Of a stretch of DNA of 48,343 nt, positions 44,076 to 48,343 are shown in pieces; position 1 is the stretch's first letter; the number at the start of each line of letters is the position of its first letter. A model generated the notes under the pieces. That model was not told where the DNA came from and searched no databases. It worked only from the letters and a program-made list of their open reading frames with translations. This DNA comes from an uncultured Blastocatellia bacterium (GTDB taxonomy: Bacteria; Acidobacteriota; Blastocatellia; Pyrinomonadales; Pyrinomonadaceae), in NCBI GenBank assembly GCA_946480785.1, contig CAMLLD010000051.1:1-48343 (forward strand). The letters run 5' to 3'. The position numbers and the translations under genes were made by a program.

Positions 44076-45875
44076 ATGGAACCGTCTCGCATTCGTAACT
44101 TCTCCATCATCGCGCACATCGACCACGGCAAGTCGACGCTCGCCGATCGACTGCTTGAGCTCACCGGCGCGCTTTCCGAACGCGAGATGGAAAACCAGGT
44201 GCTCGACAACATGGACCTCGAACGTGAACGCGGCATCACGATCAAGGCCCATGCGGTCAGGCTCGATTACAAAGCGCAGGACGGCCAGAAGTACGTTTTG
44301 AATTTGATCGACACGCCGGGCCACGTCGACTTCTCTTACGAAGTGTCGCGCTCGCTTTCGGCGTGTGAAGGCGCGCTCCTGATCGTCGATGCATCGCAAG
44401 GCGTCGAAGCGCAAACGCTCGCGAACACGTACCTCGCGATCGAAAACAATCTCGAGCTGATTCCGGTTATCAACAAGATCGATCTGCCGGGCGCGGAACC
44501 GGAGAAAGCCATCGAACAGATCGAACACTTCATCGGTCTCGAAACACACAACGCGATTCTCACGAGCGCGAAAACCGGACAAGGCGTGGCCGACGTGCTC
44601 GAAGCGATCGTGCGCGACATTCCACCGCCGAAAGGCGATACGAACGCGCCTTTGAAAGCGTTGATCTTCGATTCGTGGTACGACTCATATCGCGGCGTGA
44701 TCGTTTTGTTCCGCGTGATCGACGGCACGATTCGCCCGGGAATGAAGATTCGTTTTTTCAACGCGAACCGCGATTACCAGGTGGAAACACTCGGCGTGAA
44801 TCGTCCGACACCAACACCAATAGATCAGCTCAGCGTCGGTGAGGTCGGGTTCCTGACGGCGTCGATCAAAGCCGTGGCCGACGTGCAGATCGGCGACACC
44901 GTCACGGAAGCAGCGCGGCCGACCCACGAACCGTTTCCGGGTTTTCAGGAGATCAAGCCGATGGTGTTTGCTGGTTTGTATCCGGTGGACACGGCGCAAT
45001 ACGAGGAGCTGCGCGACGCGCTCGACAAGCTGCGTTTGAACGACGCGTCGTTCTTTTACGAGCCGGAATCGTCGGCAGCGCTGGGGTTTGGTTTTCGTTG
45101 TGGCTTTCTCGGCTTGCTGCACATGGAGATCGTGCAGGAGCGTTTGGAGCGCGAGTTTAATCTCGATCTGATCACGACCGCGCCGGGTGTGCGTTACGTC
45201 GTGACGACGACGGACGGGCAAGTGACGGAGATCGATTCGCCCGCGAAGATGCCCGATCCCGGTCGCATCGCGAAGATTGAAGAGCCGGTGATTCGTGCGG
45301 TGATCCTGACGCCCGACGAACATCTCGGTGGGATACTGCCGTTGCTCGAAGAGAAGCGCGGGATTCAAAAAGGTTTCGAGTACATCGCGGCGAACCGCGT
45401 GATGTTGACGTATGAATTACCGCTGAACGAGATCGTGCTCGACTTTTACGATCGGCTGAAATCGGTGTCGCGTGGTTATGCGTCGCTTGATTACAACCTC
45501 GCGGGTTATTGGGAGAGCGACCTCGTGAAGCTCGATGTTTTGGTTGCGGGCGAGCCGGTTGATGCGTTGTCGTTAATACTTCATCGGAGCACGGCGCAGC
45601 CGAAAGGCCGCGCGCTGGCGGAGAAGATGAAGCAGTTGATCCCTCGGCAACTGTTTGAAGTGCCGATTCAGGCGGCGATTGGGAACAAAGTCATCGCGCG
45701 CGAAACGGTGAAAGCGCTCGGCAAGAACGTGATCGCGAAGTGTTACGGCGGCGACATCACGCGCAAACGAAAGTTGCTGGAGAAGCAGAAGGAAGGCAAG
45801 AAGCGGATGAAGAAAGTCGGGCGCGTGGAGATCCCGCAGGAAGCGTTCCTGGCTGTTTTGAAGGTTAATGAGTGA
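44076..45875 (+). CDS. lepA: Elongation factor 4 (LepA)
   Basis: 599 residues, standard for the family. GTPase motifs: G1 [10 protein letters not shown]2 RGITIKAH, G3 DTPGHVDF, G4 NKIDLP. EF-G-like domains follow, then the LepA-specific C-terminal domain with [19 protein letters not shown] (the typical basic patch, quoted in part). LepA binds the ribosome and back-translocates or aids initiation. Three bases after the small membrane protein gene and overlapping the nucleotidyltransferase gene by eight bases, so the three are probably one transcript. Confidence 0.98.
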
Positions 45876-47010
45876 CCGTCCCGAGAACGAGTTGCTGTTG
45901 TGTTGTGCGCGAACGAACGTATCGCCGCAGCTTACATCGCGACTCCGGCATCTAGCGACACAAAATCTCGACTGGGATTACTTATTCAACCTCGCACGCC
46001 GTCATGCGCTGATCCCACTGCTTTATTCAAACCTCTCCCGCGAGAACACCAATTCAATCCCCCCTGCCTTCCTCGCAAAACTCAAAACCCAATATCAAGA
46101 GAACTACGCGCGCAACATCATCCTCACCGACGAGCTCTGCCGCCTAATCGACATCTTTCACAACGCAGGCATCGAAGCGATCCCTTACAAAGGCCCCGCG
46201 CTCGCGCTCTTCGCTTACAACGATCTCGGCCTGCGTCGCTTCGTCGATCTCGACCTGATCGTAAAGAAGTCAGACGTGCCGCGCGCCCGCGATCTGTTGT
46301 TCAAAGAAGACTACACGCTGAGCAAACCACTCACACCAGCACAACAAGACCTGTTGCTGCGCACGCAACACAACCTGCAGTTCTCGCGCAACAATCGCCG
46401 AATCCTGCTCGAATTGCATTGGGAAGTCGCGCCGCATTTATTCGCCTCATCCGTGCAGGAGAACGAGCTATGGCAAAACCTCACGACGATCAAGATCAAC
46501 GATCGCGAAGTGAACGCGCTCACCGCCGAAGATCTCTTGTTCTCACTCTGCGTACACGGCTCACGTCACTTGTGGGAACGCCTCGGCTGGATCTGCGACG
46601 TCGCCGAAATCATTACTCGGCACGAGTTGAACTGGGACGCGTTGCGGCAAAAAGCCACAGCAGCAGACAGCGAGCGAATGCTCCTGCTCGGTCTATATCT
46701 CGCGCATAAACTCCTGCATACGGAATTGCCACCCGAAGTGCATCAACGCTGCACTGACGATCCACATCTCGAACCACTCGCCGCCAACATCAGCGAACAT
46801 CTCTTCAACGGCCCGACGCACGTTCCCGCCACCTCACGCGAAATCTTCAAATACAATCTGCGCGTGCGAAAGAGCCTCGCGGCGCGCGCTCGTTACCTGG
46901 TCCATATACTGCGCCCGACCGACAGCGACCTCAACACGCATCTCATGCCCGCGCGTTTCACCTTCGCTTACTACCTGACCCGCCCTTTTCGCCTCTTTTT
47001 CAAGGCATAA
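45868..47010 (+). CDS. Nucleotidyltransferase family protein (NTP_transf_5)
   Basis: 380 residues. The family core is [17 protein letters not shown] then [23 protein letters not shown], with the metal Asp pair D127 and D129. [20 protein letters not shown] and [20 protein letters not shown] complete the pattern of uncharacterised PF14907 proteins. Such proteins turn up in lasso-peptide and sugar-related clusters; the substrate is unknown. It overlaps lepA by eight bases. The STN-like gene begins 54 bases after its stop. Confidence 0.85.
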
Positions 47011-47064
47011 ATTGACGGATTTTTTTGCACGTGCTAGTTTGCCCGTGATCGAGGGAGCGTTGCT

Positions 47065-47880
47065 TTGTATCTCCGAATCAATCCTGCCCAACTAAAAATA
47101 TCCACGCTGTTGCTGCTGCTCGTTGCGTTTGTCGCAACTGCCGCGGCGCAACAAGCACCCGACAAAAAGCCGGAGAAGAAACCGAGTTTTGTTTGGACCA
47201 TCAAGACACGACCCATTCTCAATCTGTCGCTGAAAGCCGAGAAGGCGAACATGGCGGATGTGGCCCACGCGTTGTCGGAGCGGTTGAAGATTCCGGTGTT
47301 TCTTGGTCCGGAGAGACAGAAGGAATTGCTCTCGATCGAGTTCAGCGAGTTGACGCTCGAGCCCGCGTTGCAACTGATGTCGCCGACGGTTTACGTCGAT
47401 TACGAACTCGACACCGGCTCGTCGAATCCACCCAAAGCTCTCGGTATTTACTTTTTCGATCAGAACCAGGGTGAGCCGCCCGCGAGCGCTGTTGTGAGTG
47501 GTTCGAATCAGACGTTGCTGGTCGAAGGCAACACGGAAGACGGGGTCGAACCGGAAACTGACGAAGCGAAGAAGAAACAAGAAGAACAACCGCTGCGGGT
47601 GCATTATGAAAACAACACGCTGACGGTCAAGGCGAAGAAGCAACCGTTGCCCGTAATCCTGTTAAAGATCGGAGAAGAGCTCGGCATTCCGGTCGACATT
47701 CAGAACGAGCGTCTCGATCCCGTCGACGCTGATATCACAAAACTTCCCATCGAAGATGTTGTGCGCCAGCTCTCTCCCAACATCAAGCTTTTCTATCGAG
47801 CTGACCTCACGCGTGCTGAAAAACGAGCCCTGCGGCTGGTCCTTGCCGAACCGGCAAAGAACGCGCAACAGGGTCCGTGA
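47065..47880 (+). CDS. Exported protein with two STN/secretin N-terminal-like domains
   Basis: 271 residues with signal peptide (STLLLLLVAFVATAAAQQ). Two repeats of the same STN-like pattern: LNLSLKAEKANMADVAHALSERL... (about 52-110) and LTVKAKKQPLPVILLKIGEELG... (about 185-240), each with a beta-helix-beta order. STN domains occur at the start of TonB receptors and secretins; here no barrel follows, so it may be a periplasmic adaptor. Start TTG after GAGGGAG; a later start is possible but the signal peptide needs this one or one very near. Confidence 0.7.
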   Translation: MYLRINPAQLKISTLLLLLVAFVATAAAQQAPDKKPEKKPSFVWTIKTRPILNLSLKAEKANMADVAHALSERLKIPVFLGPERQKELLSIEFSELTLEPALQLMSPTVYVDYELDTGSSNPPKALGIYFFDQNQGEPPASAVVSGSNQTLLVEGNTEDGVEPETDEAKKKQEEQPLRVHYENNTLTVKAKKQPLPVILLKIGEELGIPVDIQNERLDPVDADITKLPIEDVVRQLSPNIKLFYRADLTRAEKRALRLVLAEPAKNAQQGP

Positions 47881-47928
47881 AGTAGTTTGTTTGTACGCGT
47901 GCCCACGACACGTGGTCCGAAAATTTGG

Positions 47929-47957
47929 TTGCCACGGGTCGATCAAGCACATATATT
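47929..47957 (+). promoter_or_regulatory. Sigma-70 promoter of the small peptide gene
   Basis: -35 TTGCCA (47929-47934) and -10 TATATT (47952-47957) are separated by 17 bases. Transcription would start near 47964, ahead of the AGGAGG at 47975-47980. Confidence 0.65.
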
Positions 47958-47988
47958 TACTGACGACTGACGCGAGGAGGCGGCTAAC

Positions 47989-48165
47989 TTGGTAAAGCAA
48001 AGCGAAACGATTAATGAAGAACGAGCCGGGGTGCAGACCGGGAACACTGGCGGCGAGATCAAGGAAGGCAAGAAGGCGTTTGTTGAGCCGGCGATTTCGG
48101 TTCCGGTAGATGTTCTCGAAGCAACCACGTTCTTTCAGGCAGCAACGAGCGGCGTAACCAATTAA
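47989..48165 (+). CDS. Small peptide, candidate RiPP/lasso-type precursor
   Basis: 58 codons from TTG at 47989, with AGGAGG eight bases upstream and a good promoter before that; too short for standard ORF calling. The peptide has a charged N-terminal half and then KKAFVEPAISVPVDVLEAT. F31, P34, I36 and T46 sit at exactly the spacing of the lasso leader consensus Y-x2-P-x-L-x9-T, with Phe for Tyr and Ile for Leu and Val at the usual Gly. The residues after T47 (FFQAATSGVTN) would be the core; they lack the Asp/Glu needed for a lasso ring, so the product class is open. Neighbours: NTP_transf_5, an STN-like protein and an unfinished downstream gene. Confidence 0.6.
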   Translation: MVKQSETINEERAGVQTGNTGGEIKEGKKAFVEPAISVPVDVLEATTFFQAATSGVTN

Positions 48166-48184
48166 CAATTAAATTCCGGGTTTC

Positions 48185-48343
48185 ATGAAAGGCATTGAAG
48201 TCCTTGACCGACCGGTCTCGCAAAGTTTTTATGCGGTCGCCGGTCGGTTGCTATTTGTGCAGTGCTTTGAGCGAGATTTAGCCGCACGGATCGAACGACT
48301 CTTCGGCGGGTGGCAACTTACGCCAGTTGCTTCTTCTGGTCTG
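48185..48343 (+). CDS. Unknown protein (cut by window end)
   Basis: An ATG at 48185 opens a frame to the window end (53 codons), reading MKGIEVLDRPVSQSFYAVAG then RLLFVQCFERDLAARIERLF. This beginning resembles the N-terminal part of HPr-kinase-like proteins that accompany RiPP clusters, but too little is visible for an assignment. It follows the small peptide gene by 19 bases on the same strand. No strong ribosome site. Confidence 0.5.
   Translation, partial: MKGIEVLDRPVSQSFYAVAGRLLFVQCFERDLAARIERLFGGWQLTPVASSGL

Follow-up and report, generated by a model that had tools for sequence, protein, structure and literature searches.

The closest published kind of system to the peptide gene cluster studied here, which lies at the end of a 48,343-nucleotide stretch of DNA from an uncultured Blastocatellia bacterium of the Pyrinomonadaceae (contig CAMLLD010000051.1 of assembly GCA_946480785.1; hereafter the window), is that of the Linear Polyphosphorylated Peptides (LPPs) of Bacillota (PMC13381572). 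These belong to the ribosomally synthesized and post-translationally modified peptides (RiPPs), and their clusters are described as joining a discrete RiPP recognition element (RRE), an HprK-like kinase and an NTP transferase to a lasso-like leader motif, with no macrolactam cyclase. Lasso leaders proper are published with Tyr(-17), Pro(-14), Leu(-12) and Thr(-2) (PMC10368454). Known targets of HPr-kinase-like proteins are the C-terminal Ser of the substrate (PadeK, ThcoK, SyanK), Ser3 of BsfA and Ser3 of LppA, while the nucleotidyltransferase PsmN leads to a hexose on the phosphate (PMC9266682, PMC10368454, PMC13381572). Sulfotransferase and nucleotidyltransferase genes occur in Firmicutes lasso clusters (PMC8498205), and about 300 lasso-type RREs have been recorded beside radical S-adenosylmethionine (SAM) enzymes with RRE-Finder (PMC7470986). 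Acidobacterial lasso clusters with a cyclase have been described (PMC9064862), and RiPP clusters in metagenome-assembled genomes (MAGs) of Pyrinomonadaceae are mentioned in the available text of PMC11520301 without the genes reported below.

An initial annotation of the window had proposed a possible new RiPP locus around a 58-residue peptide with a lasso-style leader. This proposal has gained support from the conservation of the peptide and from the maturation genes that stand behind it in relatives. The best explanation as a whole, which we consider likely from comparison of sequences, is that the peptide is the precursor of a non-lasso RiPP with lasso-type leader handling in which a radical SAM enzyme replaces the cyclase.

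The precursor peptide and its leader

The 58-residue open reading frame (ORF) is a real gene. It has 1613 database relatives at E<=1 (the three with a named source among the best 120 listed are from Pyrinomonadaceae MAGs), and a profile built from 26 divergent peptides, drawn for alignment from 31 locus peptides, retrieved 4097 proteins at E<=0.01 out of 7989 candidates scored, so the family is large. Between the window and five relatives, residues 28-58 show 10-15 synonymous base differences and 2-8 that change an amino acid, which corresponds to a ratio of nonsynonymous to synonymous polymorphism (pN/pS) of 0.07-0.20. Only F31, P34, L43, T46 and F48 are invariant in the alignment of the 26 divergent peptides; these columns and the 1613 relatives together argue that the motif is not due to chance. 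The expression signals that had been read ahead of the gene, i.e., -35 and -10 elements at 17-bp spacing, AGGAGG and a TTG start, are present and are kept in most aligned relatives: AGGAGG and TTG in 8/8 upstream regions, TTGCCA in 6/7 and TATATT in 5/7 of the rows that reach the promoter. The pattern TTGCCA-17-TATATT was found once, against a mean of 0.3 in shuffled sequence.

If T46 is taken as position -2, then F31, P34 and I36 fall on -17, -14 and -12, which is the exact lasso spacing that the initial annotation had recognized. For a broader count we used 242 peptides (211 from database listings and 31 from loci and window, with possible overlap and a bias to near relatives). We anchored it on the pattern [DN][VI]L[ED]xT, present in all 242 peptides, so L43 and T46 are partly fixed by the anchor. 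F31, P34, T46 and F48 are present in 242/242, while position 36 is occupied by I (220 peptides), V (21) or M (one). Compared with the lasso leader Y-x2-P-x-L...Thr(-2), the spacing, the Pro and the Thr are thus kept, with Phe in place of Tyr in every one of the 242 peptides. Homologous peptides with the same leader therefore exist and are conserved in relatives.

The predicted core, FFQAATSGVTN, contains neither Cys nor Asp or Glu. Its Thr and Ser residues at core positions 6, 7 and 10 are possible phosphorylation sites. Ser or Thr is present in 242/242 tails, though this is weak evidence for phosphorylation because both are common residues. Asp or Glu at core positions 7-9 is absent in 234/242 peptides, and the eight that carry such an acid all come from divergent loci (L013, L015, L046, L049-L051, L053 and L055; G, C and L are our handles for genomes, contigs and loci). 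Among the near relatives of the window, the core is almost fixed and the whole C-terminal half nearly invariant, whereas the tails differ strongly outside this close family. A sactipeptide or ranthipeptide was considered as well and rejected, with Cys in 0/242 tails.

Features of the locus in the window (+, forward strand)
Feature	Position	Strand	Basis or remark
lepA	44076-45875		next gene upstream of NTP_transf_5
NTP_transf_5 (PF14907) nucleotidyltransferase-like protein (N), 380 aa	45868..47010	+	E=4.7e-62, 210 bits vs cut-off 31
271-aa protein, N-terminal hydrophobic helix and two tandem secretin-N0/STN-like domains	47065..47880	+	AlphaFold2, Foldseek
Sigma-70-like promoter of peptide gene, TTGCCA-17-TATATT	47929..47957	+	upstream alignment and shuffle test
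Ribosome-binding site AGGAGG	47975..47980	+	8 nt 5' of TTG start
Precursor peptide gene (A), 58 aa, TTG start	47989..48165	+	homologue search, alignment, pN/pS
Codons of F31-V-E-P34-A-I36, predicted RRE-binding motif (lasso -17, -14, -12)	48079..48096	+	alignments; positions from PMC10368454
Codons of T46-T47, predicted leader -2/-1; predicted B2 cleavage after T47	48124..48129	+	alignments; cleavage predicted
Predicted core FFQAATSGVTN, 11 residues	48130..48162	+	sequence
HPr-kinase-like gene (K), first 53 codons, cut by window end	48185..48343	+	profiles of relatives; 70% identity to L003 kinase over fragment

Maturation genes in relatives

A scan of genome contigs yielded 15 loci, and the peptide was found in 24/162 genomes of Blastocatellia, the class of G003 (E<=0.001), and in 2/396 genomes drawn from the phylum. 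The fuller loci read N, [relative of the 271-aa protein], A, K, radical SAM, [sulfotransferase], B1, [E, HTTM], [LTD-like] and, on the opposite strand, B2, where B1 is the RRE protein and B2 the peptidase. Exceptions to this order include L049 and L050, with B1 ahead of A and N behind the radical SAM gene. More compact arrangements are A-K-rSAM-B1-B2 (L012, L052; rSAM, radical SAM) and A-K-B1-B2 without a radical SAM gene (L057). Several loci run into contig ends, where the whole cluster is not visible. Of the maturation genes that the initial annotation had suggested looking for further downstream, the PqqD-like (B1) and transglutaminase-like (B2) genes were found in relatives, while an asparagine-synthetase-like gene was not present in the clusters examined; we infer that the same downstream genes follow in the genome of the window.

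The HPr-kinase-like gene suspected downstream of the peptide is borne out by relatives: the fragment in the window has no Pfam or NCBIfam match by itself but is matched by the profiles of relatives. The best NCBIfam model for K is HprK_rel_A (E 5.6e-11, below cut-off). The His-Lys-Asp-Asp motif of lasso kinases (PMC9266682), mapped by alignment, is present in 15/15 full-length relatives; the fragment in the window stops ahead of it, so this count comes from relatives only. A kinase at E<=1e-77 accompanies the peptide in 24/24 genomes compared to 2/138 genomes of the class without a peptide match, and a close radical SAM protein (E<=1e-130) in 22/24 compared to 1/138 (Fisher 1e-26 and 8e-24, respectively, uncorrected for common descent). 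These thresholds were set at gaps in the E-values, with 12-13 candidates scored per genome. As for the exceptions, the kinase of G492 is cut by a contig end (L064), and G505 has a FIAPDV peptide (F-x2-P-x-V) with a quite different tail just upstream of kinase and B1. A second locus of G504 encodes a FVEPTL peptide with yet another tail, and such divergent peptides make the count of peptide genomes a lower bound. At L008:10210-11167, the kinase gene is apparently split into two frames.

The radical SAM proteins share CxxxCxxC. Another six Cys are invariant as well, and five of these lie in the C-terminal third. Over the core domain, their profile is nearest to SkfB and PqqE among solved sequences, and the best NCBIfam models for the L003 protein are tungsten-maturase TIGR04317, MoaA, ScmF and mycofactocin. 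A second lineage (E about 1e-91 to 1e-102) occurs in seven genomes of the class. At 5/5 loci that we fetched via this gene, B2, kinase, B1 and N stand in line with a F[VI]EPEL peptide between B2 and kinase, though the radical SAM gene is no independent evidence there because the loci were found through it. Counted from the Phe, positions -2, -1 and +1 of these peptides are I, Q and G in 5/5; BsfA likewise has Ile(-2) together with Gly1 (PMC10368454). In G399, a genome from the phylum draw outside the 39 class hits, kinase, radical SAM and B1 genes follow a FEEPSISAP peptide with a Gly-rich tail, and a sulfotransferase gene lies further upstream. A third radical SAM group (E about 1e-70; L061-L063, L067-L069) had neither kinase nor PqqD within the sequence fetched around it.

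The B1-like proteins of relatives match PF05402. Their RRE profile is nearest to the solved lasso RREs TbiB1 (5.9e-13), PbaB1 (9x90; 5.9e-11) and TfuB1 (1e-10), but far weaker to LppB (9x8z; 0.0027) and PqqD (3g2b; 0.0059), and the best NCBIfam models are those for lasso PqqD, below cut-off (55 vs 70 bits). As described, the leader Tyr is held by Asp70 in LppB and the leader Trp by Gln79 and Glu75 in PbaB1 (PMC13381572). We mapped the Asp70 site via the spacing of the residues named in that paper. HMMER alignments place Asp at this site in TbiB1, TfuB1 and LppB and Gln in PbaB1, compared to Ser in 16/17 and Asn in 1/17 of the RREs studied here, whose leaders carry Phe. From these alignments, the Phe of the leader may pair with the Ser of the RRE.

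The B2-type peptidase domain PF13471 was found in 23/24 peptide genomes vs 2/14 control genomes, in a search that covered the 24 peptide genomes and these 14 controls. B2 lies on the contig of the peptide in 13/24 genomes, at 1.5-7.0 kb, and in another two it shares a contig with the radical SAM gene of the cluster. Four of five B2 ORFs scanned pass the cut-off of NCBIfam lasso_biosyn_B2 (NF033537); the fifth, from L009, was in the wrong frame, and B2 was placed there in another frame than the ORF scanned. When aligned with B2 from separate lasso-type loci, these proteins show a matching Cys (in TCWKRA) and a matching His (in GHAWLE).

Upstream of the peptide, the NTP_transf_5 gene named in the initial annotation is confirmed (see table), and this gene is usually upstream of the peptide in relatives, too. 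Between it and the peptide sits a gene that the initial annotation does not mention, for the 271-aa protein, which has no Pfam match in the window. Its AlphaFold2 model shows two similar repeats at a predicted local distance difference test (pLDDT) score of 81, and the best Foldseek matches are to secretin N0N1, weakly so (E=0.026). A relative at L006 gives a weak FecR_C/STN match, and relatives adjoin the peptide in the 17 loci aligned with it. The gene lepA lies beside the locus in the window and, going by N-termini, also in L002, L003, L004, L008, L045 and L049. Many clusters also contain an HTTM protein (PF05090, gamma-carboxylase-like; e.g., L005:8009-8911) and its small partner E (171 aa), for which we obtained no Pfam or NCBIfam match of note and whose fold model was too poor to use (pLDDT 56). 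Lamin-tail-domain (LTD) proteins with weak Pfam matches recur beside many clusters (L003:14958-16160; L045:5967-7514) and are a possible surface partner. Finally, L010 and L013 are labelled Gammaproteobacteria and yet carry the gene set, with genomes G009 and G012 outside the class hits; these may be mislabelled or mixed MAGs, or cases of transfer.

Proposed biosynthesis and rival explanations

In the pathway that we propose, the discrete PqqD-type RRE (B1) would bind the leader at F31-x2-P34-x-I36 and present the peptide to the enzymes. The HPr-kinase-like protein would phosphorylate Ser or Thr of the core, and NTP_transf_5 could then add a further group (hexose or nucleotidyl) onto the phosphate. 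The class-defining change would be made by the radical SAM enzyme in the Cys-free core headed by Phe-Phe, possibly at this conserved Phe pair, and the sulfotransferase, where present, may add sulfate. The B2-type cysteine peptidase would cut after T46-T47 to release an 11-mer derived from FFQAATSGVTN. The reading predicts that the leader Phe is matched by Ser in the RRE, that cleavage falls behind T47 and that the Cys-free FF core bears a modification by the radical SAM enzyme. More tentatively, the loci may constitute a RiPP class that kept lasso B1/B2 handling and phosphate tailoring but took on a radical SAM enzyme in place of its cyclase; the near-invariant 11-residue product of Pyrinomonadaceae, vertically kept next to lepA, might then be a constant, cofactor- or surface-like component of the cell instead of a weapon. 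The near-fixed core among near relatives of the window hints at a standing role.

Several observations weigh against this pathway. The window ends 53 codons into K, so all later maturation genes are known from relatives only. The aromatic residue of the leader is Phe, compared to the Tyr or Trp of described lasso and LPP leaders. Work on BsfA found phosphorylation unaffected when position -17, position -12, or any two or all three of these sites were changed to alanine; P(-14)A alone precipitated, and cleavage was impaired by the triple mutant only (PMC10368454), so the leader motif is not necessarily essential for every step. G457 and G498 have peptide and kinase without a close radical SAM protein, so the kind can do without this enzyme. 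The FF pair is also kept at loci with no radical SAM gene in sight nearby (L054, L056, L057) and may thus serve B2 or K instead. The B2 gene is located only on other contigs in 8/24 genomes and was not found in one; that of G005, among the 15 on cluster contigs, has an internal stop; and since B2 runs on the opposite strand, in many cases beyond LTD-like genes, it may not belong to the operon. At the G399 locus (L082), which belongs to another class, the 14.8 kb fetched revealed neither B2 nor N. Some of the eight acid-bearing divergent loci may also make a cyclised product. As an aside, G498 has a gene for a JmjC/cupin oxygenase two genes after the kinase (L054:12345-13595), and no radical SAM gene was seen there.

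Since B1, B2, kinase, nucleotidyltransferase and sulfotransferase are all known from lasso clusters (PMC8498205), the locus could alternatively be a true lasso cluster whose cyclase acts in trans from elsewhere in the genome, and the acids at core 7-9 in a few peptides would suit this idea. Five peptide genomes indeed carry separate loci with B2 and Asn_synthase (L071-L074 and L079, on G001:C117, G002:C824, G007:C456, G490:C702 and G010:C83), which are likely genuine lasso clusters and act as positive controls for the cyclase. However, a cyclase profile from four lasso-type Asn_synthase genes matched its own loci L071-L074 and also L079, and gave no match in the window or in any of the remaining loci longer than 3.4 kb. 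Asn_synthase matches as such occur in 24/24 peptide genomes and 11/14 controls; on cluster contigs, the only ones among the matches listed are on G003:C12 and G039:C23, at least 350 kb away. The initial annotation had cautioned that a core without Asp or Glu for the ring might yield a product of another kind, and this agrees with the lack of a cyclase in the clusters examined. For these two reasons, we reject a lasso product for the window, and a cyclase acting in trans, which would also have to do without a ring acid in 234/242 peptides, appears very unlikely.

An LPP-type linear (poly)phosphorylated peptide, for which kinase, nucleotidyltransferase and RRE would be essential and the radical SAM enzyme accessory, is a more serious alternative, though still an improbable one. 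RRE, HprK-like kinase and NTP transferase without a cyclase, i.e., the set described for LPPs alongside a lasso-like leader, are all found in relatives; kinase and peptide form the most constant pair (24/24); and L057, L083 and L084 have peptide, kinase and B1 with no radical SAM gene seen. Against this stand the close radical SAM gene in 22/24 peptide genomes, an RRE nearer to lasso B1 than to LppB, the absence of the LPP leader motif and the L003 locus, where neither an LPP-type archaeal signal peptidase I nor an MsbA-like ABC exporter was present among the eight proteins downstream of the peptide (Pfam) and no exporter was recognized among the proteins scanned. That the peptide is no RiPP precursor at all but a small protein that serves the HPr-kinase-like protein as substrate or regulator would fit with the kinase as its most constant partner and with a C-terminal half nearly invariant among close relatives, unlike many RiPP cores. 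Yet leader register, RRE, B2 and radical SAM enzyme, taken together, speak against it, and the tails vary strongly outside the close family while F31, P34 and T46 stay in all 242 peptides counted, so we regard this option as barely plausible.

Comparison with known systems

LPPs differ from the loci described here in peptidase, exporter and leader (PMC13381572): our loci combine FxxPx[I/V], a B2-type peptidase and a radical SAM gene, sometimes with a sulfotransferase, while the LPP leader YxxPxVLxHQxIxFETxxS is not matched by the aligned 26 peptides and the main text of the LPP paper does not mention a radical SAM enzyme. The phosphorylated lasso systems (paeninodin, pseudomycoidin, Bsf), as described, have in common with our loci a B1-like RRE, a B2-like peptidase, a kinase with His-Lys-Asp-Asp, a nucleotidyltransferase N of the same gene kind as NTP_transf_5 in the window, the leader register -17/-14/-12/-2 and, in some cases, a sulfotransferase (PMC9266682, PMC8498205, PMC10368454). 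In contrast to them, the clusters examined yielded no cyclase, the core of the window lacks a ring acid, a radical SAM gene is part of the cluster and Phe occupies -17.

Systems that pair PqqD with radical SAM enzymes (PqqE of pyrroloquinoline quinone (PQQ) synthesis, mycofactocin, SynChlorMet, and HPr-rel-A of NCBIfam) likewise consist of a peptide, a PqqD-type RRE and a radical SAM protein. Unlike these, our loci reach none of the equivalog cut-offs of these families, have a precursor that is unrelated as far as seen, and add B2 and a nucleotidyltransferase. The set found with RRE-Finder (PMC7470986) features the same kind of RRE beside radical SAM enzymes without lasso enzymes and is described there only as a group. 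Each part of the cluster is thus already known, while we found no description of the combination in the literature searched, with subscription journals and most preprints outside this search. If our reading is true, these loci join the leader recognition and cutting of lasso peptides with the peptide chemistry of radical SAM enzymes, two themes that the same literature describes apart from each other.

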